Shown in pieces: positions 30,833-46,129 of a stretch of 64,000 bases of DNA (position 1 is the stretch's first letter; the number at the start of each line of letters is the position of its first letter). This DNA is from a virus, in the IMG/VR virus record IMGVR_UViG_3300042308_001049, positions 1 to 64,000 of that record; one strand, given 5' to 3'. The notes under the pieces were generated by a model. That model searched no databases, had not been told where the DNA came from, and saw only the letters and a program-made list of their open reading frames with translations. The translations under genes were made by a program, and so were the position numbers.

Positions 30833-31192
30833 ATGAAAAAATCAATACTACGAGAGATAATTAAAGAAGAAATCTTTAAAGCATTAAAAGAAGTCACTAT
30901 TAGTAAAGAATATGAAACCCTTTACCTTGATGTAGATGATATTATTGATAACCTACTTAAATTAGAAGGAGTCACTATAGATAATGTAGATGGCATTGCC
31001 ACTAAATTATTTGGAGTTGATCCACAAGAAAATCCAGAGGCTTACGATGTTAGGTTTGATTATAAAAATGGGACTATAGATTATAGACCATTAAAGCCTA
31101 CCCTAAAAGGTGAAACTTTTCTTGAGACCTTAATGGATACATACGAGAAAAAATATAAATCTGATTTATTCTCCCCAGAAAAACCATACTAA
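30833..31192 (+). CDS. Hypothetical protein, 119 aa
   Basis: N-terminus KSILREIIKEEIFKALKE is a charged helix often seen on phage structural proteins; then an acidic domain. The 88-base gap before it is AT-rich with no clear promoter. No family recognised. Confidence 0.65.
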   Translation: MKKSILREIIKEEIFKALKEVTISKEYETLYLDVDDIIDNLLKLEGVTIDNVDGIATKLFGVDPQENPEAYDVRFDYKNGTIDYRPLKPTLKGETFLETLMDTYEKKYKSDLFSPEKPY

Positions 31193-31196
31193 CGGG

Positions 31197-31228
31197 TTTG
31201 GCTACCTAAAATATCTATCATACATTTA
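31197..31228 (+). promoter_or_regulatory. Bacteroidota-type promoter
   Basis: TTGGCT, 17 bp, TACATTTA (31221-31228). Confidence 0.7.
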
Positions 31229-31251
31229 GATAAATAAAAAGTAAATAAGAT

Positions 31252-31326
31252 ATGAGTAATTCAAATGTACCCTTACATTATCTAATACTTAAAAAAATTC
31301 TATTCATTATATTTGGATGGAGATAA
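31252..31326 (+). CDS. Micro-protein, 24 aa
   Basis: First start after the 31197 promoter. Hydrophobic C-terminal half (LILKKILFIIFGW). Could be a membrane peptide or a leader peptide. Confidence 0.35.
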   Translation: MSNSNVPLHYLILKKILFIIFGWR

Positions 31327-31386
31327 AAAAAGTTCAAACTTTAAGCTTTTTATTAACACCTCCCCATCCCAATATCCGTATATACG

Positions 31387-31413
31387 ACCCTCCAATAGGA
31401 GGGTTGTTTTAAC
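31387..31413 (+). terminator. Intrinsic terminator
   Basis: Stem ACCCTCC/GGAGGGT with an AATA loop, then TGTTTTAA. Confidence 0.75.
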
Positions 31414-31427
31414 TCCATTTTAAAACC

Positions 31428-31640
31428 ATGGCTCGTAAAAAACGTCAACAGTGTCAAATTAACCAAAAACGTTATGATAAAACGATATTATACGAGAATA
31501 AAACATGGCATGTAGTACATGAGCAAGATGGTTTATCATTTGCTGTTCAAGAAATAAGGAAAGGAGTAGTTGGTGGTAGAGTATTTCCATTTGCCCCTAA
31601 AGGCTTGGCTACTCAAAGAACAGATGTTATATTCATATAA
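31428..31640 (+). CDS. Small basic protein, 70 aa
   Basis: Basic N-terminus (ARKKRQQCQINQKRYDK) followed by a beta-rich domain. Starts 15 bases after a terminator; promoter not evident. Confidence 0.55.
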   Translation: MARKKRQQCQINQKRYDKTILYENKTWHVVHEQDGLSFAVQEIRKGVVGGRVFPFAPKGLATQRTDVIFI

Positions 31641-31658
31641 ATTAAAAAACAAGTAGTT

Positions 31659-31817
31659 ATGTTTGAAGCTAAGGTAGGTTATGATGCGGGTAATGGTGAA
31701 ATGTTTGTAGACCAAACCCAGGTATTTGAAACCGAGACAGAAGCAGAAGATTGGCTTGAATTTATGATGAACATGAGTTCAGATTATGATGTGGTTGAAA
31801 TCAATAAAATCAATTAA
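31659..31817 (+). CDS. Small acidic protein, 52 aa
   Basis: Leader GTAGTTATG. Strands plus helix (ETEAEDWLEFMMNM). No recognised family. Confidence 0.5.
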   Translation: MFEAKVGYDAGNGEMFVDQTQVFETETEAEDWLEFMMNMSSDYDVVEINKIN

Positions 31818-31818
31818 A

Positions 31819-31911
31819 ATGCATACTCAAATAATTTTACTAACAATAGTAGGAATATTGGTGCTATTGGGAGTGTATGGAATCGATTGGAATAAAACAA
31901 AAACAAAATAA
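31819..31911 (+). CDS. Membrane micro-protein, 30 aa
   Basis: One hydrophobic helix (ILLTIVGILVLLGVYGI) and a KTKTK tail; one base after the previous stop. Confidence 0.45.
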   Translation: MHTQIILLTIVGILVLLGVYGIDWNKTKTK

Positions 31912-31915
31912 CAAT

Positions 31916-32140
31916 ATGAATAACAATAATAACAATACCCAGCAACTCGATTACACGTATGAGGAACTTCAGGGTAAAGTAGTAATACTCTCACTATTGG
32001 AGGACGACGGAGAAGGAGGATACGATGAGAATAAAGAGTTCATCGAGGTACTATCTAAAAACGATTATGAGGACCTAGAACAAACGGTAGCCGAGTATCG
32101 AGAACAGGGAGTATTGGATGAGTATTATGTTGTGAAATAA
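31916..32140 (+). CDS. Acidic protein with Asn-rich start, 74 aa
   Basis: Starts with a run of asparagines, then a strongly acidic domain (LEDDGEGGYDENKEF). ATG 31916 is preferred; a longer in-frame reading starts inside the previous gene. Confidence 0.55.
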   Translation: MNNNNNNTQQLDYTYEELQGKVVILSLLEDDGEGGYDENKEFIEVLSKNDYEDLEQTVAEYREQGVLDEYYVVK

Positions 32141-32214
32141 TAACACCGGAATTTAACGCGTACGTACGTAGTACGTACGTGGTACTGATGTACTGATGTG
32201 TGTAAAGTGTGTGT

Positions 32215-32239
32215 GGGGTGCTGGGAAAACTAGCACCCC
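32215..32239 (+). terminator. Hairpin, possible terminator
   Basis: 8-bp stem GGGGTGCT/AGCACCCC with a 9-base loop. No U-tract follows, so termination is uncertain. Confidence 0.45.
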
Positions 32240-32496
32240 ATATCTATGGATTTAAGTAGATAATGAGATATAAAGATAATTAGATAATAATATAGGAAGA
32301 TAATAATATAAGTAGATACAAATGTGGTCTGCTACATATAGATGTATATTGGGAGATAAGGAGATACGGATGTGTGTGGAAAACGGGCGGACGAGTGGGT
32401 GGGGTGAGGGGTGGGGGGAGTGAACCCCCTCAACATGCACAAGCCAAGCCTTAGTCTCGATAAGAGATATAAGGATATATCAAAAAATGATAAAAG

Positions 32497-32558
32497 TTTT
32501 GACAGGGTTTGTTTGGCTTCCCCATCTCTTTTGACATTCTTTTGACAGAGTTTTGACA
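32497..32558 (+). repeat. TTTTGACA iterons, group 1
   Basis: TTTTGACA at 32497, 32529, 32540 and 32551; the last three have an exact 11-base period separated by TTC and GAG. Confidence 0.75.
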
Positions 32559-32697
32559 AAGTTTTAAAAAAAGAACAAAAAAAGCTGACAAAGGGGTTTT
32601 ACCCCCGGGGGATCTTCTGGGGGAGGGGGAGATCTTTCCACGCGATAGGCAAACCCTGTCCACCCCTATGGTTAATAGGCAAGATCTATCACCATTT

Positions 32698-32727
32698 TTT
32701 TGACATTCTTTTGACAGAGTTTTGACA
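32698..32727 (+). repeat. TTTTGACA iterons, group 2
   Basis: A perfect 30-base copy of 32529-32558: three TTTTGACA units at 11-base spacing, ending 5 bases before a promoter. Confidence 0.8.
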
Positions 32728-32732
32728 TTTTG

Positions 32733-32764
32733 TTTGGCCCCCTAAGAAATCTTTATTATCTTTA
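32733..32764 (+). promoter_or_regulatory. Bacteroidota-type promoter behind iterons
   Basis: TTGGCC (32734-32739), 17 bp, TATCTTTA (32757-32764). Iteron group 2 lies directly upstream, as an activator or operator array would. Confidence 0.55.
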
Positions 32765-32805
32765 TATTGGGGAAACCTACCCCGGGGGGGGGAGAGGAAA
32801 GTAGG

Positions 32806-32837
32806 TTTGGCTTCGTAAGAGAGGGATGTTATATTTA
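32806..32837 (+). promoter_or_regulatory. Bacteroidota-type promoter
   Basis: TTGGCT, 17 bp, TATATTTA (32830-32837), followed by the common GGTGTAATTAAAA leader. Confidence 0.8.
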
Positions 32838-32860
32838 GGTGTAATTAAAAAATAAATGTT

Positions 32861-33040
32861 ATGAGTATTGAAAACAGTTTCTCAGGTATCACTTTCCAAA
32901 TGGCTAAGGCGTTAGGTAAGTATCAAGGCTTTGCTCAGTTCTTGAAAGAAGGAAATGACACAATGACTAAAGAACAGATCATTGCTCGTTTAATTGAGAT
33001 TGATGAGGAGTTTGAGGCCAATGTTAAGAAAAAATCATAG
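32861..33040 (+). CDS. Small helical protein, 59 aa (paralogue A)
   Basis: Shares TF..MA.ALGKY.G...FL.E....TKE.II..L.E with the next cassette gene, which is also 59 aa. First cassette of the promoter array. Function unknown. Confidence 0.6.
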   Translation: MSIENSFSGITFQMAKALGKYQGFAQFLKEGNDTMTKEQIIARLIEIDEEFEANVKKKS

Positions 33041-33041
33041 G

Positions 33042-33073
33042 CTTGGCTACCCAAAAGATAGATGTTATATTTA
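33042..33073 (+). promoter_or_regulatory. Bacteroidota-type promoter
   Basis: TTGGCT, 17 bp, TATATTTA (33066-33073), starting 2 bases after a stop codon. Confidence 0.8.
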
Positions 33074-33095
33074 GGTGTAATTAAAAATTAAGGTT

Positions 33096-33275
33096 ATGGG
33101 AAACGAATTCATCAACATGCTCCAAACAGCAATGCGTTTTGCAAGTGCATTAGGTAAGCACGAGGGTAATATCAAATTTATCCTAAATGAACAAGATAAT
33201 CTCTCCAAAGAAGATATTATTCGCTACTTACAGGAGACATATGATGAAGTAAATTCAATACTTTCTCAGGAATAA
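33096..33275 (+). CDS. Small helical protein, 59 aa (paralogue B)
   Basis: Tandem paralogue of the 32861 gene (MRFASALGKHEGN, LSKEDIIRYL). Own promoter and leader. Confidence 0.6.
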   Translation: MGNEFINMLQTAMRFASALGKHEGNIKFILNEQDNLSKEDIIRYLQETYDEVNSILSQE

Positions 33276-33276
33276 G

Positions 33277-33308
33277 TTTGGCTACCCAAAAGATAGATGT
33301 TATATTTA
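33277..33308 (+). promoter_or_regulatory. Bacteroidota-type promoter
   Basis: TTGGCT, 17 bp, TATATTTA (33301-33308), identical to the preceding promoter over its whole core. Confidence 0.8.
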
Positions 33309-33337
33309 GGTGTAATTAAAAATTAAAAATAAAGGTT

Positions 33338-33502
33338 ATGGCAAACATGAGTTATTGCAGGTTCGAAAACACTTACCACGATTTGGTAGATTGTTTTGAC
33401 AACATTTGGAGTGAAGCTGAGAATGAAAGAGATGAGCGTTACCGTCAACGAATGATTGAGTTTTTGAAAGAACGGATTGATGATATTGAAGAAATGGAGT
33501 GA
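33338..33502 (+). CDS. MSYCRFENT-type small phage protein, 54 aa
   Basis: N-terminus MSYCRFENTYHDLVDCFD matches, from memory, a widespread small protein family of phages and bacteria of unknown function. Acidic/basic helical C-terminus. Confidence 0.6.
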   Translation: MANMSYCRFENTYHDLVDCFDNIWSEAENERDERYRQRMIEFLKERIDDIEEME

Positions 33503-33526
33503 GGGGCTTGGCCCCCCACTTTTTTC
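33503..33526 (+). terminator. Terminator overlapping a promoter
   Basis: GGGGC-TTG-GCCCC (33503-33515) followed by CCACTTTTTT. The loop and right arm supply the -33 box of the next promoter. Confidence 0.65.
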
Positions 33527-33538
33527 TTATTATATTTA
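33507..33538 (+). promoter_or_regulatory. Bacteroidota-type promoter inside terminator
   Basis: TTGGCC, 17 bp, TATATTTA (33531-33538); the spacer is the terminator right arm and T-tract. Confidence 0.7.
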
Positions 33539-33562
33539 GACGTAATTAAAAATTAAATGGTT

Positions 33563-33793
33563 ATGAAGATTATTAAAGTTACAAGTCTTAAAGACAAATC
33601 ATCAATATACATAAATGTTGAACAAATAGGGCATTTTTTTAGAGTTCCTAAAAGAATGAATTACGGTCGTGTTGAGGAAGAAGAAAATACCAGAGTAGGA
33701 GTTACAACTCATAATAATGGTGGATTTTCAATAGTTGAAACTCCTGAAACATTGTTAAAGTTAATTGATAAGGTTTTGGCTCCTCAAAAGTAG
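33563..33793 (+). CDS. Small FlbD-like protein, 76 aa
   Basis: KIIKVTSLKDKSSIYINVEQI, RVGVTTHNNGGFSIVETPETLLKLI: same strand-strand-helix plan as the 22478 protein. The second of two ATGs (ATGGTTATG) is preferred because every leader ends GGTTATG. The next promoter -33 box lies in its last codons. Confidence 0.6.
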   Translation: MKIIKVTSLKDKSSIYINVEQIGHFFRVPKRMNYGRVEEEENTRVGVTTHNNGGFSIVETPETLLKLIDKVLAPQK

Positions 33794-33806
33794 TTTGTTA
33801 TATTTA
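33775..33806 (+). promoter_or_regulatory. Bacteroidota-type promoter within a gene end
   Basis: TTGGCT, 17 bp, TATATTTA (33799-33806). The -33 box encodes the last residues of the upstream protein. Confidence 0.75.
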
Positions 33807-33829
33807 GACGTAATTAAAAATTAAAGGTT

Positions 33830-33901
33830 ATGAAAAAGCAAGCATTTGTTATCGCGGTGATCACATTTATCTCAACTGCTATTGTGTTGTACGCAAAATA
33901 A
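33830..33901 (+). CDS. Membrane micro-protein, 23 aa
   Basis: Own promoter and full leader; a single hydrophobic helix (AFVIAVITFISTAIVLYA). The dedicated cassette argues that it is translated. Confidence 0.5.
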   Translation: MKKQAFVIAVITFISTAIVLYAK

Positions 33902-33903
33902 GG

Positions 33904-33935
33904 TTTGGCTACATTAAAAATAGATGTTATATTTA
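33904..33935 (+). promoter_or_regulatory. Bacteroidota-type promoter
   Basis: TTGGCT, 17 bp, TATATTTA (33928-33935). Confidence 0.8.
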
Positions 33936-33958
33936 GGTGTAATTAAAAATTAAAGGTT

Positions 33959-34126
33959 ATGAAACATCCAGAGTATTCAAGAGCAAATAATGAGTATCAA
34001 GGTCGTAGTGAAGCGCCCCGTATTCCAAGAGAAGCAAGATTAGCTTTGAAACAGAGAATGATTGATTTTGGAGTGCATTTGAAGGCACTTGAAGAGAAGA
34101 TTAAGAGAGAGAAGCCAGTGTATTAA
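33959..34126 (+). CDS. Small basic protein, 55 aa
   Basis: Charged, helical C-terminus (QRMIDFGVHLKALEEKIKRE). A minus-strand promoter at 34222 points towards it, so it may meet antisense RNA. No family recognised. Confidence 0.55.
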   Translation: MKHPEYSRANNEYQGRSEAPRIPREARLALKQRMIDFGVHLKALEEKIKREKPVY

Positions 34127-34151
34127 GGTCACTTAAGAGGTAAGTGATACA

Positions 34152-34176
34152 GGGGGGCGGGGGCCCCCCTTTTATA
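34152..34176 (+). terminator. Intrinsic terminator
   Basis: GGGGGG (152-157)/CCCCCC (164-169) stem followed by TTTTATATT. Confidence 0.7.
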
Positions 34177-34221
34177 TTCTCCCTGGGGCTACTTACAGAC
34201 TCCTGCCTAGGGTTCCCCACC

Positions 34222-34252
34222 TAAATATACGTAAATTTTTCCGGCAAGCCAA
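34222..34252 (-). promoter_or_regulatory. Minus-strand Bacteroidota-type promoter
   Basis: On the minus strand TTGGCT (34252-34247), 17 bp, TATATTTA (34229-34222). Same spacing as the + strand set. No minus-strand gene follows within about 100 bases, so the product may be a short RNA or antisense RNA. Confidence 0.65.
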
Positions 34253-34260
34253 GCTTGGCT
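34247..34260. repeat. Palindrome AGCCAAGCTTGGCT joining divergent promoters
   Basis: Perfect 14-bp palindrome made of the two -33 boxes of the divergent promoters. Confidence 0.7.
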
Positions 34261-34285
34261 AACAGGGGGATTATTCGTATATTTA
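34255..34285 (+). promoter_or_regulatory. Bacteroidota-type promoter (divergent pair)
   Basis: TTGGCT (34255-34260), 17 bp, TATATTTA (34278-34285). Confidence 0.75.
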
Positions 34286-34309
34286 AATGTAATTAAAAAC
34301 GAAACGGTT

Positions 34310-34465
34310 ATGTATCATTTAAATTGCCCTTACTACAAAAAGAAGTTTGAGACCATTTATGAGTTGTTAGATGATATTGTGTTGTCAGGAATGGACCCTA
34401 ACTATACAGTATACAAAGATGGTAAGAGTGTAGGGACTAAAGCTATTCACTTAATTCAGTTTTGA
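34310..34465 (+). CDS. Hypothetical protein, 51 aa
   Basis: YHLNCPYYKKKFETIYELLDD start, then a strand-turn with YTVYKDGKSVG. Cassette gene with its own promoter. Confidence 0.55.
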   Translation: MYHLNCPYYKKKFETIYELLDDIVLSGMDPNYTVYKDGKSVGTKAIHLIQF

Positions 34466-34497
34466 TTTGGTTACCCAAAATATATTTTGTATATTTA
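34466..34497 (+). promoter_or_regulatory. Bacteroidota-type promoter
   Basis: TTGGTT, 17 bp, TATATTTA (34490-34497), beginning right after the stop codon. Confidence 0.75.
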
Positions 34498-34521
34498 AAT
34501 GTAATTAAAAATTAAATGGTT

Positions 34522-34713
34522 ATGGAAGATAATAAAGTTGTAGTAGACACAGTAATTGATTTGCTAAACAATATGGATTGTGATGGTGAAACAATGCAAT
34601 TTATACTTAAAAAAGTAGGAATGGAATGGCAGATGTTAAGGCAGTTGATGTTAACTATGCCTATAGAACAGGTAGAATATCTGATAGACGAACGGAAGGA
34701 TTTGGGTATTTAA
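34522..34713 (+). CDS. Small acidic helical protein, 63 aa
   Basis: Helical (VVDTVIDLLNNMD, EWQMLRQLML). GGTTATG start preferred over an ATG six bases upstream. Next promoter begins in its last codons. Confidence 0.55.
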   Translation: MEDNKVVVDTVIDLLNNMDCDGETMQFILKKVGMEWQMLRQLMLTMPIEQVEYLIDERKDLGI

Positions 34714-34732
34714 GAGAACGTTCGTATATTTA
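34701..34732 (+). promoter_or_regulatory. Bacteroidota-type promoter within a gene end
   Basis: TTGGGT, 17 bp, TATATTTA (34725-34732); the -33 box codes for the last residues of the upstream protein. Confidence 0.65.
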
Positions 34733-34752
34733 ATCAAATAAAAATAATGGTT

Positions 34753-34920
34753 ATGAAAATAGGAGACAAAGTAAAGTATGATGGTGAAGCTCACCTAATT
34801 GTAAACATTGTAGATGGTTACCCAGTAGTGGTACCTATGAGTGTAATTGATGATGAGTGTTTTATCATTGAGTATGAAGGTGATGGGTGTCACGAATTTG
34901 ATTTGATCCCGATAAAATAA
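34753..34920 (+). CDS. Small acidic protein, 55 aa
   Basis: SH3-like opening (KIGDKVKYDGEAHLIVNIVDG), then an acidic strand region. Two-gene cassette with the next gene. Confidence 0.55.
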   Translation: MKIGDKVKYDGEAHLIVNIVDGYPVVVPMSVIDDECFIIEYEGDGCHEFDLIPIK

Positions 34921-34926
34921 ATGGTT

Positions 34927-35145
34927 ATGAGTAAAATTAAGTTTTTAAAAGAAATGTTTATTGAATGTTGTATTGGATTTGATGATTTTGGAGATCCAAT
35001 AATGGAAGAGGAAAAAGTATTAAAAGGTGAGGAATTTGAAGTAGATATTGTTAGTGATGAAGTTGATGAAGATATTATCCAAATTCAATTTGGGAATGGT
35101 TCTGTTAGTTTTATTGATAGAAATGATATTGAAATAGAGGACTAA
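34927..35145 (+). CDS. Acidic beta-rich protein, 72 aa
   Basis: Starts 6 bases after the previous stop without its own promoter. Strongly acidic (EVDIVSDEVDEDIIQI). Confidence 0.55.
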   Translation: MSKIKFLKEMFIECCIGFDDFGDPIMEEEKVLKGEEFEVDIVSDEVDEDIIQIQFGNGSVSFIDRNDIEIED

Positions 35146-35167
35146 TAAAATAAGGGTGGGGAGCAGG

Positions 35168-35199
35168 TTTGGCTTCGCCAGAGAGGGATGTTATATTTA
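35168..35199 (+). promoter_or_regulatory. Bacteroidota-type promoter
   Basis: TTGGCT, 17 bp, TATATTTA (35192-35199). Confidence 0.8.
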
Positions 35200-35222
35200 G
35201 ACGTAATTAAAAATTAAAGGTT

Positions 35223-35714
35223 ATGAAAGCAAAAGAAATGTCAGAAGAGGTTTATGATGAGTTGATCCGTTTGGATTACCACCGCAAAGTGAATTCAGTG
35301 TATGAAGTTAACACCTCAGTAGATTTTAGTAGTTTTGATAAAGAAACTCAAAAGGCAATTAGTACGTTTCCTGTTCTTATGTTTAATCCAGATACTGACT
35401 TAATGGATATTGAGAATCTAGATGGGGAACAGCAGTTTTATATTTTGTTTACTCGAAATAGAAACTATTTGATTGATACTCAAGGTTATACTTACCCACG
35501 TTATATTATTGGGTTGAATAACTTGAAGTTCGAAGAAGATGAAGACGACATCTACGAACGTATGGAAGGCTTGGTTCGTATTGCCGACAGTAAGATTTTT
35601 GATGAGGTAACAAAGAGTTTGGCTTTCGAATTAAATAAAGAAGACTTTGACCACGAAGATATTGTAAACTATTTGTTTATGAAGGTTCAATTAGCGCTTG
35701 GCTCACACCGATAA
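35223..35714 (+). CDS. Hypothetical acidic protein, 163 aa
   Basis: Larger cassette protein: helix (MSEEVYDELIRLDYHRKV), strand region (FYILFTRNRNYLIDTQGYTYPRY), acidic C-terminal half. The last codons (LGSHR) contain the next promoter -33 box. No family recognised. Confidence 0.65.
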   Translation: MKAKEMSEEVYDELIRLDYHRKVNSVYEVNTSVDFSSFDKETQKAISTFPVLMFNPDTDLMDIENLDGEQQFYILFTRNRNYLIDTQGYTYPRYIIGLNNLKFEEDEDDIYERMEGLVRIADSKIFDEVTKSLAFELNKEDFDHEDIVNYLFMKVQLALGSHR

Positions 35715-35728
35715 TTTTATTATATTTA
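35697..35728 (+). promoter_or_regulatory. Bacteroidota-type promoter within a gene end
   Basis: TTGGCT, 17 bp, TATATTTA (35721-35728), -33 box inside the preceding gene. Confidence 0.75.
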
Positions 35729-35752
35729 GGTGTAATTAAAAAATAAATGGTT

Positions 35753-35917
35753 ATGAATGGAATGTTTTATGTAGTGGTTGAACAAGATGTGGCCTCAGTT
35801 GTAAATGCTAGTTTGGCTTTGACTCTCGAAATGGATCCATATTTTGATGGTGAATTGTATGGTGCTTATTCAAGTTATGAACAGGCTGCTGATCATGCCA
35901 ACCAGGTCAATCTCTAA
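35753..35917 (+). CDS. Small acidic protein, 54 aa
   Basis: FYVVVEQDVASVV start and a YSSYEQAADHANQV helix. Cassette gene, no family recognised. Confidence 0.55.
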   Translation: MNGMFYVVVEQDVASVVNASLALTLEMDPYFDGELYGAYSSYEQAADHANQVNL

Positions 35918-35924
35918 AGATTGA

Positions 35925-35956
35925 TTTGGCTACCCAGAATATTTTTGTTATATTTA
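35925..35956 (+). promoter_or_regulatory. Bacteroidota-type promoter
   Basis: TTGGCT, 17 bp, TATATTTA (35949-35956). Confidence 0.8.
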
Positions 35957-35980
35957 AATGTAATTAAAAATTAAAAGGTT

Positions 35981-36676
35981 ATGAAAGAGCAACTGATTGA
36001 GCAAATTGAAGGTTTAAAAGCCATCAAAGAAGAAGCACGCAATAACAAGGCTATGAAAATTAGTTCTTTGTTTCATGAGGTGTTTGATTTGAAAGATGTA
36101 GAATATTCAAATCTGAATATTGGTTCTGAACGGGCTGAGTTTAGCTTCAATAATGAATATTCTGGTCAGTTTACAGTTTTGTATTACGAGACATATGGTG
36201 ATGATGAGACCAAATTAGAAGTAAGTGTACCATCATCTTACAGTGAAGATGTTTCACGTTTGATTCAGTGGGGTAAGATTGCAGAACAAATTGAATTGAA
36301 GGGTAGTGAGTTTTTAACTAAACTAAAAGTACTCCGAAACGAATATAAAGCAGGAATTGAGGTCACTAACAACATGTTGTATGAGGCTGAAACTAGATTG
36401 AAGTTTATTCAAAATAAAGAAAATGCAGTTGATTTAGAATTGACTAAAACGGCTTTGAGAACTGTAGGTCATCAATTTGAAACAGGTCATTGGGTGCAAG
36501 TAGGAGCAATGGATAGTGTTTATACTGACAGTATCCGGATTGAACAAACACCAGGTAAGAAAACATATAAAGTTCATTATGTAAACTTAGGCCGCCCGGC
36601 TACATATGAACGAGTACGAGAAATGTATATCAATAAATTGGCTCAAGAATTGGTAAATAACTCTAAAAACGCCTAA
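35981..36676 (+). CDS. Hypothetical protein, 231 aa
   Basis: Largest cassette protein. N-terminal helix, a beta-domain (ERAEFSFNNEYSGQFTVLYYET), a long helical segment and a C-terminal beta part. Followed 2 bases later by a small gene. Confidence 0.65.
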   Translation: MKEQLIEQIEGLKAIKEEARNNKAMKISSLFHEVFDLKDVEYSNLNIGSERAEFSFNNEYSGQFTVLYYETYGDDETKLEVSVPSSYSEDVSRLIQWGKIAEQIELKGSEFLTKLKVLRNEYKAGIEVTNNMLYEAETRLKFIQNKENAVDLELTKTALRTVGHQFETGHWVQVGAMDSVYTDSIRIEQTPGKKTYKVHYVNLGRPATYERVREMYINKLAQELVNNSKNA

Positions 36677-36678
36677 CC

Positions 36679-36810
36679 ATGAACCAGCAAGAATTAACCA
36701 CCAAGTTGATTGAATTGAAATCACAGGTAACAGGCACAACACCTTACGCATACGGTTTGTTAGACGGTTTAACAATGGCAATAGAAGAAATAGAGAGTCC
36801 CCGATCATAA
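36679..36810 (+). CDS. Small protein, 43 aa
   Basis: Two short helices (QQELTTKLIELKSQV, GLLDGLTMAIEEI). Same transcript as the previous gene. Its stop abuts an inverted copy of the leader. Confidence 0.5.
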   Translation: MNQQELTTKLIELKSQVTGTTPYAYGLLDGLTMAIEEIESPRS

Positions 36811-36827
36811 CCATTTTTAATTACACC
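36806..36827 (-). repeat. Inverted copy of the common leader
   Basis: The minus strand reads GGTGTAATTAAAAATGGTTATG here, the same as the + strand cassette leaders with a start codon. No -7 box precedes it. Confidence 0.6.
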
Positions 36828-36843
36828 CGCGTTATGGGGACTA

Positions 36844-36876
36844 GGGGAGCCAGGTTTGGCTCCCCACTCTTTTATT
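36844..36876 (+). terminator. Terminator fused to promoter
   Basis: GGGGAGCC (36844-36851), loop AGGTTT, GGCTCCCC (36858-36865), then ACTCTTTTATT. Confidence 0.75.
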
Positions 36877-36886
36877 GTTATATTTA
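36855..36886 (+). promoter_or_regulatory. Bacteroidota-type promoter inside terminator
   Basis: TTGGCT (36856-36861) is in the loop and right arm; 17 bp; TATATTTA (36879-36886). Confidence 0.8.
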
Positions 36887-36909
36887 GACGTAATTAAAAA
36901 TTAAAGGTT

Positions 36910-37176
36910 ATGCTGTTAGTAGAGTTTAAAGAAATGGTTAACGACGGTAAAATATTCTCCGTTGTATTTACTAAGAAGGATGGTACGATCCGAAAAATGG
37001 TAGCGCGGTTAGGGGTGCGTAAGCATCTTAAGGGAGGCGAATTGAAATACGACGCCGCTGCCCGCAATTTATTGCCTGTATTTGATATGGAGAAAGAAGA
37101 ATATCGTATGATTAATGTTTCAACCATACAAGAAATTAAAGTGGGTGGTGCTAAGATTGATTTGGCTACGCTATAA
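36910..37176 (+). CDS. SH3-like small phage protein, 88 aa
   Basis: SVVFTKKDGTIRKMVARLGV, a KGGELKYD segment and YRMINVSTIQEIK resemble the SH3 beta-barrel small proteins often annotated in Bacteroidota phages. Binding partner unknown. Its last codons contain the next -33 box. Confidence 0.6.
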   Translation: MLLVEFKEMVNDGKIFSVVFTKKDGTIRKMVARLGVRKHLKGGELKYDAAARNLLPVFDMEKEEYRMINVSTIQEIKVGGAKIDLATL

Positions 37177-37192
37177 TTTGATGTTATATTTA
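37161..37192 (+). promoter_or_regulatory. Bacteroidota-type promoter within a gene end
   Basis: TTGGCT, 17 bp, TATATTTA (37185-37192). Confidence 0.75.
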
Positions 37193-37215
37193 GACGTAAT
37201 TAAAAATTAAGTGTT

Positions 37216-37461
37216 ATGAAAAAAGTGCAGTTTAAAAGTGACGTTTATGGTTTCGTTTACGATTCAGTTTATGGCGAAGTTAGTAAAGTGTTTAATACAC
37301 CTTTAAATGAATCAGAATTAGAATTAATTGAGAGTGTATTAAGTGAAGATGATTGTATTTTCACAGATATTGATTCAGTAAATGCAGTGTTTGAATTTGA
37401 TGAGAATAGTTTGGAGTGTGATGTTGAGGGTTTGAATACAGTATTAGAGTACGCAGAATAA
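37216..37461 (+). CDS. Acidic protein, 81 aa
   Basis: Strand start (VQFKSDVYGFVYDSV) then acidic repeats of helix and strand. Cassette gene, unknown function. Confidence 0.55.
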   Translation: MKKVQFKSDVYGFVYDSVYGEVSKVFNTPLNESELELIESVLSEDDCIFTDIDSVNAVFEFDENSLECDVEGLNTVLEYAE

Positions 37462-37473
37462 AATAAAAACAAA

Positions 37474-37507
37474 GGTGGTGATGAGCTTGGCTCACGCCAC
37501 CTTTTTT
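37474..37507 (+). terminator. Terminator fused to promoter
   Basis: GGTGG ... GAGC-TTG-GCTC ... CCACC stem (37474-37501, one bulge) followed by TTTTTTATT. Confidence 0.8.
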
Positions 37508-37517
37508 ATTATATTTA
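37486..37517 (+). promoter_or_regulatory. Bacteroidota-type promoter inside terminator
   Basis: TTGGCT (37487-37492), 17 bp made of the terminator right arm and T-tract, TATATTTA (37510-37517). Confidence 0.8.
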
Positions 37518-37542
37518 AACGTAATTAAAAAATTAAAAGGTT

Positions 37543-37812
37543 ATGAAAATGATTGATTTAAATGTTGCTTTTAGAGAGGCGATGGATGTAGCATCTTATG
37601 AAGATGTATTGGGTATTATAGAGAGTTATGAGGATGAAAGTATATTAGATGACTTTAAACTTGAGTTTGTTGAAGGTGAAGATATTAGTAAAGATGACTA
37701 TAGTTACTTCTCTATTAGTTTGATAGATGATATAAGTGAAGTTGGTTATATACAGGCCAATTGGATTTATATTTGGGATAAGGATATTTTTGAAAAGACT
37801 GAGTTACTTTAA
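37543..37812 (+). CDS. Acidic protein, 89 aa
   Basis: Helical N-terminus then acidic beta region (FVEGEDISKDDYSYFSISL). Flanked by two near-identical terminator-promoter modules, so the cassette may be a duplication or exchange unit. Confidence 0.55.
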   Translation: MKMIDLNVAFREAMDVASYEDVLGIIESYEDESILDDFKLEFVEGEDISKDDYSYFSISLIDDISEVGYIQANWIYIWDKDIFEKTELL

Positions 37813-37824
37813 AATAAAAACAAA

Positions 37825-37858
37825 GGTGGCGATGGGCTTGGCTCACGCCACCTTTTTT
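37825..37858 (+). terminator. Terminator fused to promoter
   Basis: Near copy of the 37474 module: GGTGG (37825-37829) / CCACC (37848-37852) with TTTTTTATT. Confidence 0.8.
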
Positions 37859-37868
37859 ATTATATTTA
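37837..37868 (+). promoter_or_regulatory. Bacteroidota-type promoter inside terminator
   Basis: TTGGCT (37838-37843), 17 bp, TATATTTA (37861-37868). Confidence 0.8.
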
Positions 37869-37891
37869 ACCGTAATTAAAAATTAATGGTT

Positions 37892-38152
37892 ATGAAAGCA
37901 AAAGGAATTAAAGCAATGATGACGTTGCTGGAGAAGAAGGGTTGCAAGGTGTGTGGCACCACAGAGGATTTTTACGGCCGCCATAACAGCACACCAGGCG
38001 TTTGGATCGCAGCAGACCACACACCTGAATTGTTCAACTACTGGAGTTCAAATGGAGTATTGATTAGTGGTAAGTTGAATAGGGCAGTTCAGAAAGCCGG
38101 ATGGTGGTTTGAGTGGCACGATCCAGGAACGATTATGGTATGGCCACACTAA
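37892..38152 (+). CDS. Hypothetical protein, 86 aa
   Basis: Contains KKGCKVCGTTEDFYGRHNSTP with a CxxC and later WWFEWHDPGTIMVWPH. Codon use is GC-richer than its neighbours, hinting at separate origin. Function unknown. Confidence 0.55.
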   Translation: MKAKGIKAMMTLLEKKGCKVCGTTEDFYGRHNSTPGVWIAADHTPELFNYWSSNGVLISGKLNRAVQKAGWWFEWHDPGTIMVWPH

Positions 38153-38159
38153 CCAGGGT

Positions 38160-38192
38160 GGGGAGCCGGTTTGGCTCCCCGCTTATTTTTTG
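38160..38192 (+). terminator. Terminator fused to promoter
   Basis: GGGGAGCC (38160-38167), loop GGTTT, GGCTCCCC (38173-38180), then GCTTATTTTTT. Confidence 0.8.
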
Positions 38193-38201
38193 TTATATTT
38201 A
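38170..38201 (+). promoter_or_regulatory. Bacteroidota-type promoter inside terminator
   Basis: TTGGCT (38171-38176), 17 bp, TATATTTA (38194-38201). Confidence 0.8.
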
Positions 38202-38231
38202 GATGTAATTAAAAATTAAAAACAAAAGGTT

Positions 38232-38426
38232 ATGACAGTTCAAGAATTGATTGATAAGTTGAGTCAGGTTAAAAACAAAAACTTAGAAGTAGTAGTTCAG
38301 GTTACTGACCCAACAGATTGGGAGTACAACAACTCAATTGAATTTACTGAGGTTCAAAGTGTATTATTGGTTGAGGATGATGATGATGAGACTGAAGTAT
38401 TTGTAATTAATGGGGGTGATGTTTGA
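38232..38426 (+). CDS. Small phage protein, 64 aa
   Basis: TVQELIDKLSQVKNKNLEVVV then an acidic strand (LLVEDDDDETEVFVI) is a common small phage protein plan. Its end overlaps a terminator stem. Confidence 0.6.
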   Translation: MTVQELIDKLSQVKNKNLEVVVQVTDPTDWEYNNSIEFTEVQSVLLVEDDDDETEVFVINGGDV

Positions 38427-38443
38427 TCACCCCTTATTTTTTT
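38413..38443 (+). terminator. Intrinsic terminator overlapping a gene end
   Basis: GGGGTGAT / ATCACCCC stem (38413-38433, loop GTTTG) then TTATTTTTTT. Confidence 0.8.
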
Positions 38444-38468
38444 ACCCCAAAAAGGGATGTTATATTTA
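38437..38468 (+). promoter_or_regulatory. Weak Bacteroidota-type promoter
   Basis: TATATTTA (38461-38468) with the expected 17-bp spacer, but the -33 position is only TTTTTT. Confidence 0.45.
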
Positions 38469-38490
38469 GACGTAATTAAAAATAATGGTT

Positions 38491-38823
38491 ATGAAAAACG
38501 AAAAAATGATCGTGAATGAAGAGTTGATCGGTAAATACATCAACCAGGTATTGTGGAGCGATGTTAATCCGGTAGGCAAAATTATCGCAATCAAAGGCAA
38601 AACCAAAGTATTGATTCAACCGGTTTGTGCCAGCAAAAATAAAGCCAAAATGGAATTCGTACCGGGTGGTTTTTCAGCGGTGTGTTTGAATCAAAATGAA
38701 CAACATTACGATTTCATGGAGGTGGGAGAGGTATTTGAAACGACTCTGAGCCATGCCAAGATGAAAAAAGCGTTCTGGAATATTGACGACGCACCATATA
38801 AGCAATATGATTATAACTTCTAA
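38491..38823 (+). CDS. Hypothetical protein, 110 aa
   Basis: Beta-rich middle (GKIIAIKGKTKVLIQPVCASK) and a C-terminal helix. Last cassette gene of the array. Confidence 0.6.
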   Translation: MKNEKMIVNEELIGKYINQVLWSDVNPVGKIIAIKGKTKVLIQPVCASKNKAKMEFVPGGFSAVCLNQNEQHYDFMEVGEVFETTLSHAKMKKAFWNIDDAPYKQYDYNF

Positions 38824-38842
38824 ATAGAAGATACGGAGAGGG

Positions 38843-38873
38843 GAAAGGGCCGAAAGGCTCTTTCTTCTTTTTT
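38843..38873 (+). terminator. Intrinsic terminator
   Basis: 9-bp stem GAAAGGGCC/GGCTCTTTC with GAAA loop, then TTCTTTTTT. Confidence 0.8.
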
Positions 38874-39165
38874 GGAAAAGAGGGGTGTACGTGGTACGTG
38901 ATATATACTTTATATGTGGTATATCCCCCCGCGCGCTGTTATCCATACATGCTTGGATACTGGGAAAGAATTTTTTTGATGTAAGGATGAAATAAAGGTA
39001 ACTTCCACCATCGGATAGTATATACTTATATATTTGCACCGCCCACCATACCCCCATACCACACCATCCTATACCATGCCCATCCCCCACACCCACACCC
39101 CAATTTCCGGATTTGCCCTTTTACCCATTTTTTCCAGCTCCCTAAATCCTTCTTTCTTAAAAAAG
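38874..39165. other. Non-coding region with C-rich tract
   Basis: No gene seen. Holds GTACGTGGTAC, an 11-mer also in the 32.1-kb region, alternating TA/TG runs, and a C-rich tract at 39079-39101 whose minus strand can form a G-quadruplex. Confidence 0.4.
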
Positions 39166-39197
39166 TTTGGCTACCATAAGGTATATACATATATTCA
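39166..39197 (+). promoter_or_regulatory. Bacteroidota-type promoter
   Basis: TTGGCT, 17 bp, TATATTCA (39190-39197). Confidence 0.65.
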
Positions 39198-39227
39198 GGT
39201 ATTAATGAAAACAAAGTAAATAAGTTT

Positions 39228-39446
39228 ATGTGGGCATTTGCAGTTGTAGGAGCATTATTACTATTCGCGTTTATTAACGGTTTAATTCACTTATTTAAAC
39301 CAGACAAACCCACTATCATTAGATGTATCGCCTTTATGGTCGGGTTGGTATTATCCAATATTTTATTTGATTGGGGAATTGAACGTATGGAATGGTTTTT
39401 AGGACTGTCTATTACTATGGTGGGTCTTTGGAAATGGTATGAGTAA
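39228..39446 (+). CDS. Membrane protein, 72 aa
   Basis: Three hydrophobic segments (about 2-21, 30-48, 54-70). Small inner-membrane protein of unknown role behind its own promoter. Confidence 0.6.
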   Translation: MWAFAVVGALLLFAFINGLIHLFKPDKPTIIRCIAFMVGLVLSNILFDWGIERMEWFLGLSITMVGLWKWYE

Positions 39447-39505
39447 GGAGCGTATATACGGATATGTGGATGTGGGTGGGATGCAAGGAAACTTTCGAGC
39501 TGAGG

Positions 39506-39537
39506 CTTGGCTTCCCAAGATTTTTTCCATAACTTCA
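39506..39537 (+). promoter_or_regulatory. Weak Bacteroidota-type promoter
   Basis: TTGGCT, 17 bp, TAACTTCA (39530-39537). Confidence 0.45.
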
Positions 39538-39564
39538 CCCCACTGGAGTTAATAAATTAAGGTT

Positions 39565-39723
39565 ATGAAGATTCGCTTTAATGATACATTTCTATTTATT
39601 ATTGGAATTATATTTTTCATAGGAGGATATTTTACTGAGACTATAGGTTCATATTTTGTATTTGGTTTATGTCTTGGTACTTTAATTAATCACGCTGTCC
39701 AAGATTTTAAGAATAAAAAATAA
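39565..39723 (+). CDS. Membrane protein, 52 aa
   Basis: Two hydrophobic segments (LFIIGIIFFIGGYF and SYFVFGLCLGTLI). GGTTATG start; TAATG coupling to the next gene. Confidence 0.55.
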   Translation: MKIRFNDTFLFIIGIIFFIGGYFTETIGSYFVFGLCLGTLINHAVQDFKNKK

Positions 39724-40226
39724 TGAGTTACTATTCAGAAACATCTATTAAACATCCTATTCAAAAGATTACTTATGAAGAGGCTAAACAATATATTCCC
39801 TTAAAAGAAGATTATACTGGTGTAACAGTAGATAAATGTCCATACTACACCATGACTGAAGGTGAGGACGGGTGGACTCTGGTGACATATTACACTGGGA
39901 GAAAACGAGCGAGGTATGTTAACCTAGATAAAGAATATGATTCATGGGTTTATGTTATATCTAACCCTAGCATTCCTGGTCAAATAAAAATTGGTTATAC
40001 TGATCTTACTCCTGAGAAACGAGCTCAACAATTGTCTCGATCAACAGGTGTTCCAACTCCATTTATTGTTGAATGGGCATTCCATTGTTTTAATGGGGCT
40101 CAATTGGAAGGTGAGGTTCATCGTTACTTAGAGGCATCACGTGTGTCTGGTAATAGAGAATTTTTTGATACTTCTATTAGTGAAGCTAGAGACACTATTG
40201 TTAGGTTCGGACAAAATTATCTTTAG
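39723..40226 (+). CDS. T5orf172/GIY-YIG-like protein
   Basis: 167 aa. C-terminal domain WVYVISNPSIPGQIKIGYTD, RAQQLSRSTGVPTPF, AQLEGEVHRYLEASRV and NREFFD match the T5orf172/Mug113 family, relatives of GIY-YIG nucleases (Y..is...ikIG.t......R...ls..tg.p.pf). Could be a nuclease or a DNA-binding relative. The N-terminal half is unassigned. Confidence 0.75.
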   Translation: MSYYSETSIKHPIQKITYEEAKQYIPLKEDYTGVTVDKCPYYTMTEGEDGWTLVTYYTGRKRARYVNLDKEYDSWVYVISNPSIPGQIKIGYTDLTPEKRAQQLSRSTGVPTPFIVEWAFHCFNGAQLEGEVHRYLEASRVSGNREFFDTSISEARDTIVRFGQNYL

Positions 40227-40227
40227 G

Positions 40228-40259
40228 TTTGGCTACCCAAGAATATATACATATATTTA
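40228..40259 (+). promoter_or_regulatory. Bacteroidota-type promoter
   Basis: TTGGCT, 17 bp, TATATTTA (40252-40259), driving the MoxR-like gene. Confidence 0.8.
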
Positions 40260-40282
40260 GGTGTTAATTAAAAATTAAAGTT

Positions 40283-41467
40283 ATGAGTAAAACAAAGAAA
40301 CATGATCTGGTATCGGTAAACGTGAATGAGCTCAAAGAGTTCCTTACCCATATCATCAACAACAACCGTTACCTGCAAGAGAATGGTAAGCCATCAGTTT
40401 CAATTGAAGTTGTAGGTGAATCAGGTATTGGTAAAACATCTTCAATCATCCAGCTAGCTAATGAGTTGGATTTGCATTTTGTTAAATTGAACCTCGCACA
40501 AATTGAAGAAATTGGTGACTTGGTTGGTTTTCCAATCCGTCAATTTGAACTTACAAAAGGTTCTGATAAAGTATGGGTTGATGAGAATTTGATTAAAGAA
40601 TATCAAGATCAAGGTTTTAAATCAACTGGTTTGAACCGAATGAGTTACTGCGCACCTGAATGGATTAGTGGTAAAGAAAAAGGAGGTATTTTGCTTCTGG
40701 ATGACTGGAACCGCGCTGATATTCGTTTCATTCAAGCTGTAATGGAGCTGATTGATCGTCAACAATATATTAGCTGGACATTACCTAAAGATTGGCATAT
40801 CATTTTGACTGCTAATCCTGACACAGGTGAATATTTGGTTAATAGTATTGATAACGCACAAAAAACACGATTTATTTCAGTTAATCTAAAGTATGATGTT
40901 GACTGTTGGGGTAAATGGGCTGAAGAAAATGAAATGGATGGTCGTTGTATCAACTTCATGCTTATGCATCCTGAATTGGTTACTAAAGAGATAAACAGCC
41001 GAAGTGTTAGTATGTTCTTTAATTCTATTTCTTCACTTAAGAATTTTGAAGAGTCATTGCCTCTAATTCAAATGGTTGGAGAAGGATCAGTTGGTTCTGA
41101 GTTTAGTACTATGTTCACTATGTTTATTAATAACAAGTTGGACCGTATGATTACTCCTGAGAATATCTTGAACCAAGATGAAAAGTATGTTATGAATACT
41201 TTAAAAAGTTTAGTTGGTAAGGAAGATAAATATCGAGCAGATATTGCCTCAACACTCTCAACTCGATTGGCTAACTATTTGGATATTAAAGCTAAAACTG
41301 AGAAAATCTCAAATGAAATTATTAACCGTATCTCGGCACTGGTAAAGGAGGAAATTTTTACCACTGATATCTGTTACAATATGGTTAAGAATATCTACAA
41401 TAGTAATCCGACACAGTTCAAGATGATGATGGTAGATAAGAATTTGGTTAAATATATTATGAAATAA
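40283..41467 (+). CDS. MoxR-like AAA+ ATPase
   Basis: 394 aa. Walker A GESGIGKTS at residues 45-53, Walker B GILLLDDWNRA around 134-144, sensor-1 region ILTANPDTGEY, and the RFISVNLKYD strand after it. The layout is that of MoxR/AAA_5 ATPases, which remodel partner proteins and usually pair with VWA-domain proteins. A VWA metallopeptidase lies two genes downstream. Target unknown. Confidence 0.82.
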   Translation: MSKTKKHDLVSVNVNELKEFLTHIINNNRYLQENGKPSVSIEVVGESGIGKTSSIIQLANELDLHFVKLNLAQIEEIGDLVGFPIRQFELTKGSDKVWVDENLIKEYQDQGFKSTGLNRMSYCAPEWISGKEKGGILLLDDWNRADIRFIQAVMELIDRQQYISWTLPKDWHIILTANPDTGEYLVNSIDNAQKTRFISVNLKYDVDCWGKWAEENEMDGRCINFMLMHPELVTKEINSRSVSMFFNSISSLKNFEESLPLIQMVGEGSVGSEFSTMFTMFINNKLDRMITPENILNQDEKYVMNTLKSLVGKEDKYRADIASTLSTRLANYLDIKAKTEKISNEIINRISALVKEEIFTTDICYNMVKNIYNSNPTQFKMMMVDKNLVKYIMK

Positions 41468-44796: not shown

Positions 44797-44876
44797 GCAC
44801 CCGTGGTGAAACAGGTAGACACAAGGGACTTAAAATCCCTCGCGCAAGCATGCCGGTTCGATTCCGGCCGGGTGTA
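44797..44876 (+). tRNA. tRNA-Leu (UAA)
   Basis: Acceptor GCACCCG/CGGGTGT, anticodon loop CTTAAAA, long variable arm, T-loop TTCGATT. No encoded CCA. Confidence 0.92.
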
Positions 44877-44880
44877 CAAA

Positions 44881-44944
44881 GAAGGGGAGACTAAGGTTTC
44901 CGGCTACAAGTTGTTCGCGACAATAAGGTAGGTAGCCCCTTAAA
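44881..44944 (+). ncRNA. Candidate structured RNA, about 64 nt
   Basis: Nested helices: AAGGGG/CCCCTT closing, GGCTAC/GTAGCC inside, and a TTGT/ACAA hairpin with TTCGCGA-like loop. Not a normal tRNA. Lies between Leu and Arg tRNAs. Confidence 0.4.
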
Positions 44945-44948
44945 ACAT

Positions 44949-45022
44949 GGTCCGGTAGCTCAGTTGGATAGAGCATCGCACTTCTAATGCGACGGTCGAA
45001 GGTTCGAATCCTTCTCGGATCA
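44949..45022 (+). tRNA. tRNA-Arg (UCU)
   Basis: 74 nt; anticodon stem TCGCA/TGCGA with loop CTTCTAA; normal D- and T-arms. Confidence 0.92.
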
Positions 45023-45030
45023 CTAAATAC

Positions 45031-45107
45031 TGGCAAGTATCTCCTCAAGCTTATACCTTGTAGAAAGAGTAACTGGTCACATGAGGGTTCGAGTCCCTTC
45101 TTGCCAA
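45031..45107 (+). tRNA. Aberrant tRNA-like gene, no normal D-arm
   Basis: Perfect acceptor TGGCAAG/CTTGCCA and T-arm (GAGGG, TTCGAGT), 77 nt. Between them the usual D-arm cannot be drawn; a CAAG-CTTATAC-CTTG hairpin near the 5' side could be an anticodon arm reading UAU (Ile). A degenerate or non-canonical tRNA. Confidence 0.45.
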
Positions 45108-45110
45108 CAG

Positions 45111-45231
45111 AGAGAGGTAGTGAAGCTGTAGTTGGGAGGTAGAGTGTATTAGTTACTGAAAAAGGGTTTATAGTAGGTAGGCGTCACTTATTGCACTCAA
45201 CCAGAAACCCTGAAAGACCCGAAACCTCTCT
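45111..45231 (+). ncRNA. Candidate structured RNA, about 121 nt
   Basis: Closed by a perfect AGAGAGGT/ACCTCTCT helix. Inside, GAGTG (45142)/CACTC (45194) and GGGTTT (45164)/AAACCC (45205) would cross, giving a pseudoknot. No T-arm, so not a tRNA. Confidence 0.5.
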
Positions 45232-45236
45232 TTAAA

Positions 45237-45322
45237 GGAAGGTTACTCAAGTGGCCTAAGAGGATGGTTTGCTAAACCATTAGGGTGTAACAGCCGCGAG
45301 GGTTCGAATCCCTCACCTTCCG
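45237..45322 (+). tRNA. tRNA-Ser (GCU)
   Basis: Acceptor GGAAGGT/ACCTTCC, anticodon loop with GCT between GGTTT and AAACC, long variable arm. Confidence 0.92.
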
Positions 45323-45339
45323 CATAATACCACGTTATA

Positions 45340-45801
45340 ATGAACTCAATATTCCGAAGCGGCACAACTCATAAACCAATACAGTTAGTACCTTATCTAC
45401 TGGATTACATACGAAATAATCCAGAGACAAAAATATATGTTGGTTCTGACTCTCAAAACCGTGGTCCTGAAACTGTTTACTGCACAGCAGTAGTACTCCG
45501 ATATAGAAGCAGAGGTTGTCATGTTTTGTACCACAAAACAAAAGTACCAATTGTTAGAGATTTTTGGTCGCGTTTATGGAAAGAAACAGAATTGTCAATC
45601 GAAGCTGCTCTATTCATTACAGAAAATAGCCCACTTAAAATCGAATCAATCGATCTGGATTTTAACGACGATGAATATAAAGCATCTAACAAACTTGTAG
45701 CAGCATCAAAGGGTTGGGTGCAAGCAACTGGCTTTAGAAGTACTACAAAACCAGCTCTTCAAATCGCGACAAGAGCTGCCGACCATATTATACGGACTTA
45801 A
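45340..45801 (+). CDS. YkuK-like (DUF458) RNase H-fold protein
   Basis: 153 aa. KIYVGSDSQNRG, TAVVLRYRSRGCHVLYHKT, SIEAALFI, IESIDLDFN and SNKLVAASKGWVQATGF, followed by KPALQIATRAADH match the YkuK/DUF458 family, an RNase H-like fold with acidic residues in SDSQ and DLDF. Function in bacteria is unclear. Here it sits alone between tRNA genes, so a role in tRNA or RNA metabolism is a fair guess only. Confidence 0.8.
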   Translation: MNSIFRSGTTHKPIQLVPYLLDYIRNNPETKIYVGSDSQNRGPETVYCTAVVLRYRSRGCHVLYHKTKVPIVRDFWSRLWKETELSIEAALFITENSPLKIESIDLDFNDDEYKASNKLVAASKGWVQATGFRSTTKPALQIATRAADHIIRT

Positions 45802-45809
45802 CAAACAAA

Positions 45810-45841
45810 TTTGGTTATCCAAAATATTGTTCGTATATTTA
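45810..45841 (+). promoter_or_regulatory. Bacteroidota-type promoter for tRNA block 2
   Basis: TTGGTT, 17 bp, TATATTTA (45834-45841), 44 bases before tRNA-Leu. Confidence 0.75.
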
Positions 45842-45885
45842 TATAGTTGAAAAAGCAACATGTTATTTGACATATTGGTAAAAAT

Positions 45886-45965
45886 GCCGAAGTGGTGGAA
45901 TGGTAGACACGCTGGTCTTAGGAACCAGTGCCTAGTGTGTGTGGGTTCGAGTCCCACCTTCGGTA
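45886..45965 (+). tRNA. tRNA-Leu (UAG)
   Basis: 80 nt; anticodon stem CTGGT/ACCAG, loop CTTAGGA; acceptor GCCGAAG/CTTCGGT. Confidence 0.92.
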
Positions 45966-45973
45966 CATAAATT

Positions 45974-46045: not shown

Positions 46046-46052
46046 CAAATAT

Positions 46053-46124: not shown

Positions 46125-46129
46125 CAAAT

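Follow-up and report, generated by a model that had tools for sequence, protein, structure and literature searches.

The promoter array

The stretch of DNA analysed here, referred to as the window, is positions 1–64000 of the 130,563-bp virus record IMGVR_UViG_3300042308_001049, and its subject is an array of small genes at some of whose boundaries a terminator-like hairpin shares bases with a promoter. The record carries a T4-type large terminase, a gp20-like portal and a gp23-like head protein, all specified outside the window; it is that of a T4-related phage, and the window is about half of the genome. The nearest cultured phage by terminase is Flavobacterium phage vB_FspM_immuto_2-6A (60.6% identical). 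Stretches in contigs of other metagenomes match the region at 99.8–100% identity. No homologous match to the array region was found in GenBank phage DNA.

The promoter array (32802–38500, plus strand) comprises 17 modules, the copies of a 68-nt repeat family (D1), at about one per small gene and just before the start codons. They have the form TTTGGCT-N17-TATATTTA, followed by an TAATTAAAAATTAAA leader and GGTTATG, and five possess a fused terminator. Over the whole 130,563-bp record the pattern TTGGCT-N17-TATATTTA was found 20 times in the forward and once in the reverse orientation, and the same pattern read backwards was not found at all. In the Bacteroidota the -33 element of sigma-A promoters is TTG or TTTG. 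The -7 consensus mapped in Flavobacterium psychrophilum is TAnnTTTG (PMC9723704), and the array promoters, as TTG-N20-TATATTTA, show both elements at the 19–21 bp typical of the class; their -7 box TATATTTA resembles the consensus but ends in A where the latter has G. In the immuto genome the promoters are TTGG-N19-TATATTTA, some of them with hairpins (69567), and clear fusions are few.

Among ten array proteins tested, eight had no match in PHROG and nine none in Pfam; the single Pfam match was that of the protein specified by 36910–37173 to WYL_2 (E-value 2.5e-10).

Anatomy and folding of the five fused modules

The first-pass annotation had placed hairpins fused to promoters at 33503, 36844, 37474, 37825 and 38160, and there they were found, each a stable hairpin plus a T-rich tract in fixed register with TTGGCY-N17-TATATTTA. 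Every module contains a -33 box, exactly 17 bp and TATATTTA, then nnGTAATTAAAAATTAAA..GGTTATG, and all five lie on the plus strand. Module 1 (33498–33538) has the hairpin AGTGAGGGGC-TTG-GCCCCCCACT (33498–33520), the box TTGGCC (33508–33513), a spacer with T6 (33514–33530) and the -7 box TATATTTA (33531–33538); its RNA folds at -18.5 kcal/mol (z -2.8). Module 2 (36844–36886; -20.0 kcal/mol, z -2.3) is made up of the hairpin GGGGAGCCA-GGTT-TGGCTCCCC (36844–36865), the box TTGGCT (36856–36861), a spacer (36862–36878) whose T-tract at 36866 is weak (ACTCTTTTATTGT), and a -7 box at 36879–36886. In module 3 (37474–37517; -21.8 kcal/mol, z -5.5) the hairpin GGTGGTGATGAGC-TTG-GCTCACGCCACC (37474–37501) is combined with a box at 37487–37492, a spacer with T6 (37493–37509) and a -7 box at 37510–37517, and in module 4 (37825–37868; -22.8 kcal/mol, z -5.5) the hairpin GGTGGCGATGGGC-TTG-GCTCACGCCACC (37825–37852) with a box at 37838–37843, a spacer with T6 (37844–37860) and a -7 box at 37861–37868. 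Module 5 (38156–38201; -23.9 kcal/mol, z -4.0) contains the hairpin GTGGGGAGCC-GGTTT-GGCTCCCCGC (38158–38182), the box TTGGCT (38171–38176), a spacer with T6 (38177–38193) and a -7 box at 38194–38201. Five neighbouring promoters without a terminator fold at only -2.6 to -8.4 kcal/mol (z +1.3 to -2.0). The full-length hairpins of modules 3 and 4 escaped the hairpin detector (one-base bulge) and were recovered by RNA folding.

The -33 box is drawn into the hairpin in two ways. In the modules at 33503, 37474 and 37825 its TTG is the loop and the right arm opens with its GCY; the other two, at 36844 and 38160, have their loop just upstream of the box, and TGGCT or GGCT falls within the right arm. 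The remainder of the right arm together with the T-tract makes up the 17-bp spacer, as had been described, with the reservation that the tract of module 2 is poor; the box TTGGCT, which had been assigned to all five modules, is present in four, 33508 being TTGGCC. A GC-rich hairpin followed by a U-tract, the layout of an intrinsic terminator, is thus seen in these modules, with that same weakness in module 2. No match to Rfam was obtained for 31000–41000 at E-values up to 1, and a known RNA family was rejected for this region.

The modules at 37474 and 37825 are paralogues, 96% identical over 73 nt. Their stems differ by two substitutions, T/C facing G and A/G facing T, and a pair is preserved at each. 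Those at 36844 and 38160 have GGGGAGCC..GGCTCCCC in common and are probably a second pair of common origin. With two paralogous pairs among the five modules, three independent hairpin types would be represented in the window.

Recurrence in other viruses

A search for the module in other Bacteroidota phages, as the first-pass annotation had proposed, found it in many viral contigs. Two scans were made with patterns that demanded part of the hairpin, and their results are hence hairpin-biased; they revealed many phages, otherwise unrelated, in which the stems differ and the promoter register is fixed. The pattern matched 50 stretches at a spacer of 17, compared with none at a spacer of 19, with the -7 box shifted by 2 bp. 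Examples (L-numbers are labels of contigs or sequences from the scans) are ATGGGGAAGC-TTG-GCTTCCCCAT-T8-CG-TATATTTA in L073, AAGGCTTGG-CTCT-CCAAGCCTT-TTTTGT-TATATTTA in L070 and TTTGGCC-TTCG-GGCCATTTTTTAT-TATATTTA in L066. Contigs of marine and freshwater origin that were not shown to be related to T4 also contain fused modules.

The proper test of hairpin extension is a comparison of 30 non-redundant viral clusters with the expectation from flank swapping and spacer shuffling. Extended hairpins were present in 26 of the 30: in 13 the loop contains TTG (type A; 3.1 expected), and in 13 the 5' arm contains TTGG (type B; 1.6 expected). Across 16 type-A clusters, stem positions 3 to 8 are paired in 13–16 of 16, and the stem columns contain several pair types each (GC, AT, TA, GT, TG, CG) with pairing mostly kept; these column counts are descriptive, since selection demanded at least four of five of those pairs and the promoter boxes were fixed by the search. 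Most fused hairpins have a run of 4–9 T directly after the stem, and in some (36866 in the window; L013, L202) the tract is short or interrupted.

A sample not selected for hairpins consisted of 261 promoters with a downstream reading frame, picked on the promoter alone from among the matches listed, for which reason the frequencies are approximate. A fused terminator with a score of at least 13 was found at 19 of these 261, against 0.22 ± 0.45 in shuffles, and eight had a score of at least 16, against 0.08 when upstream flanks were swapped between sites. Where a strong terminator precedes TATATTTA in this sample, it ends at most 20 nt from the box in 29 of 45 cases; the octamer controls for these distances, ATATTTAT and TATTTATA, are not independent of the real box, which they overlap. 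The sharing of bases between hairpin and promoter, claimed originally for the window, is therefore supported by both the viral-contig scans and the unselected promoters, and its conservation reaches well outside this genome. The fused terminators occur in several registers, with the loop at -18, -23 or -26.

As a side observation, contigs L067, L071, L057, L076 and L090 have in common a fused module, AAGGGRATAGC-TTG-GCTAYYACCCTTTTTT, before one gene of 57–63 aa (MGHYED...), and at one position of its stem A-T, G-T and G-C pairs are found across the contigs.

Cellular genomes

A looser pattern was run against 84,980 bacterial and archaeal genomes and gave 47 stretches, mostly chance matches within genes and without stems. 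Real-looking exceptions were found in Runella limosa (L237), a Bacteroidaceae metagenome-assembled genome (MAG; L239), a Prevotella MAG and a Flavobacteriaceae contig, the last of which may be a phage. The site on the Runella limosa chromosome (near 2449–2482 of L237), AAAAAGGCTTTGGC-TTGGCT-GCCAAAGCCTTTTT-ATT-TATATTTG, is a non-phage case of fusion: a 14-bp hairpin with TTGGCT as its loop and TATATTTG at 17 bp. It is flanked by DUF1573-like and serine-hydrolase-like genes, named by eye from their sequence. These few cases indicate that fusion is possible in the host phylum and much commoner in phages.

Gene order in a relative

The relative L015 is collinear with the window over the tRNA and core region, at 90–98% identity. 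The array of L015 consists of homologues of the window genes 35223, 34310, 37216, 38232, 33096 and 39723, in that order, and in this single relative compared, the permuted genes are joined between genes at promoter modules. L015 also has a fused module of its own, GGGGGGGTA-TTG-TACCCCCCC, with a different stem and the box TTGTAC, the TTG again lying in the loop.

The window contains a cluster of 13 tRNA genes (44797–47365) that is largely collinear and 90–98% identical in L015, the adjoining array being scrambled.

Function of the modules

Each module is probably a composite terminator-promoter at the boundary of one-gene cassettes, and the best inference from the sequence is that it terminates one transcript and initiates the following one. 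RNA of the upstream gene would fold into the hairpin, with release of host RNA polymerase in the U-tract. At the level of DNA, the -33 TTG/TTTG and the -7 box TATATTTA would be the recognition elements for the primary Bacteroidota sigma factor of the host. The approximately 20 bp between these boxes would be free in sequence and could for that reason hold the 3' arm of the hairpin and the T-tract; with the loop formed by the -33 TTG (RGC-TTG-GCY), or the 5' arm including TTGGC, some 45 bp would do both jobs. Since the cassettes all open with a module of almost identical sequence, these modules may also act as short homologies for the gain, loss and permutation of cassettes, as has been proposed for the promoter-early stem-loops (PeSLs) of T4-like phages.

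Several observations weigh against this assignment. A hairpin is present in only five of the 17 array modules and missing from 12, which indicates that insulating every gene is not the rule. The weak T-tract of module 2 has been mentioned, and hairpins with GC triloops may bring about only partial termination. In L174, L195 and L170 fused hairpins occur without a TTG at -33, which means either that these sites can do without the box or that they are terminators only. In L015 nothing but a short promoter, lacking a hairpin, separates the homologues of 37216 and 38232, and the hairpin itself is thus not needed for shuffling.

An alternative is that the overlap does more than save space and serves as a relay: the polymerase just released would be placed on the next promoter and, rather than dissociate from the phage DNA, start again in cis. 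Single-molecule studies have shown that, once it has terminated at an intrinsic terminator, E. coli RNA polymerase mostly remains on the DNA, along which it slides, and that it can re-initiate at a nearby promoter (PMC6978380, PMC11347151); in the present modules the point of release would lie within a promoter, and the strict register of the viral stretches (50 versus 0) is in keeping with a handover. Nevertheless we consider a relay unlikely. Sliding spans hundreds of bp and makes an exact overlap unnecessary for recycling, the precedent concerns the polymerase of E. coli and not that of the Bacteroidota, and the several registers argue that space, not the geometry of a handover, is what is fixed, suggesting that the saving of space is enough to explain the overlap. 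Were it true, a row of modules would pass polymerase from gene to gene and the phage genes would compete better for a limited pool.

It is distinctly improbable that the hairpin is a stabiliser or processing site of the mRNA 3' end which terminates only incidentally and next to which the promoter is independent. The short or interrupted T-tracts noted above would suit such a role, but most fused hairpins have the classical layout of an intrinsic terminator, with 4–9 T right after the stem. A DNA operator bound by a phage regulator is very improbable: the type-A repeat is indeed centred on or beside the -33 box, yet the stems of different sites have no sequence in common, as is seen even inside a single genome at 33503, 36844 and 37474, pairing and not sequence being kept, and a common operator or protein site was therefore rejected. 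Chance overlap of GC-rich arms with promoters, in short AT-rich intergenic gaps that force a terminator near the next promoter anyway, is scarcely credible and was rejected for the set as a whole by the shuffling, flank-swapping and register-shift controls, the cellular matches to the looser pattern being mostly stemless and in coding regions, although single weak sites may be due to chance.

If the composite terminator-promoter is accepted, a promoter spacer free in sequence can hold a terminator, a design that Bacteroidota phages would have reached many times with differing stems. The modules would be compact, testable 45-bp parts predicted both to end and to start transcription; in them, the recycling of polymerase from a terminator into an overlapping promoter could be probed in a natural setting. 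For annotation, terminators should be looked for inside the promoters of these phages. A tblastn search with the proteins behind fused modules reached no cultured phage with a mapped transcriptome.

Other hairpins and repeats

Strong terminators that stand alone, unfused, are found in the whole record at 31385, 34151, 38839, 88383, 99848 and 102907. A contrasting case is the last copy of D1 (38412–38468, plus strand; unfused terminator at 38413), in which a complete terminator, GGGGTGATGTTTGATCACCCC plus T7, lies upstream of the -7 box region and not inside it, the T-tract occupying the -33 position, with no TTGG box. At 126318 there is a further fused terminator, GAGCTTGGCTTTGCCAAGCTC followed by T7 and then ATATTA, with TTGGC in its 5' arm. 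A hairpin that fills the spacer is present at 23308–23335 (plus strand), where GAGGGGC-GAGA-GCCCCTC precedes TATATTTA (TTGGAG-N17-TATATTTA) and no long T-tract occurs.

Back-to-back divergent promoters were noted at 34222–34285, where their -33 boxes form the palindrome AGCCAAGCTTGGCT. Transcription from the leftward promoter, whose TATATTTA lies at 34229 on the minus strand, would cross a short gene-less stretch toward the terminator-like repeat at 34151–34170. Immediately upstream of the array, the gene-poor segment 32529–32727 contains repeated TTTTGACATTCTTTTGACAGAGTTTTGACA motifs in two blocks approximately 158 bp apart, which are possible iterons or regulator sites.

Comparison with known systems

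The ordinary arrangement in the Bacteroidota, an intrinsic terminator and then a promoter of this same class (PMC9723704), by default has no bases in common between the two. Post-termination recycling in E. coli resembles the modules in having a terminator near the next promoter with possible re-initiation in cis, but is a behaviour of the polymerase and involves no overlapping sequence element. In yeast, terminator-promoter bifunctional elements have been designed (PMC10298055) in which one stretch of DNA ends one unit and starts the next with bases shared; these are synthetic and eukaryotic, and involve neither a hairpin nor a sigma promoter.

The first-pass annotation knew of no described element of such design, a view that the T4-like phages contradict. 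PeSLs are reportedly cassettes in the variable small-gene regions of these phages, with gene order changing at the cassettes. The titles of Arbiol et al. 2010 (GBE 2:140) and Comeau et al. 2014 (GBE 6:1611), as cited in PMC4503421, present T4-like PeSLs as composite promoter-terminator motifs by which modular shuffling is mediated. In a part of the RB49 genome that was scanned, three promoters have a 7-bp hairpin that exactly fills the 17-bp spacer without a T-tract (for example TTGACA-GGGGATCGGTGATCCCC-TATACT), and in two a classical terminator precedes the -35 hexamer by about 16 nt. Cassettes with a hairpin in the promoter are thus already present in T4-like phages, and the element is not unprecedented.

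The window modules are like PeSLs in combining a host-type promoter, judged as such from its sequence, and a stem-loop in one small intergenic cassette, in lying in a region of small variable genes of a T4-related phage, and in that cassettes have been exchanged with breakpoints at the cassettes, as seen in the one relative, L015. No sequence homology to the PeSLs of E. coli T4-like phages was found, and compared with RB49 the promoter class and hairpin placement differ: the spacer hairpins of RB49, which that at 23308–23335 resembles, are not followed by a T-tract, and their stem does not include the -35 hexamer. Going by those titles and the RB49 hairpins, the Bacteroidota element would be a non-homologous variant of the same kind as the PeSL, and the idea of cassette shuffling could be extended from enterobacterial T4-like phages to those of another phylum. 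What appears to be new in the Bacteroidota form, as read from its sequence, is its promoter of Bacteroidota type (TTG, TATATTTA), the drawing of the -33 box into the hairpin as loop or stem, the packing of both the 3' arm and the T-tract within the spacer, and its presence in many phages.

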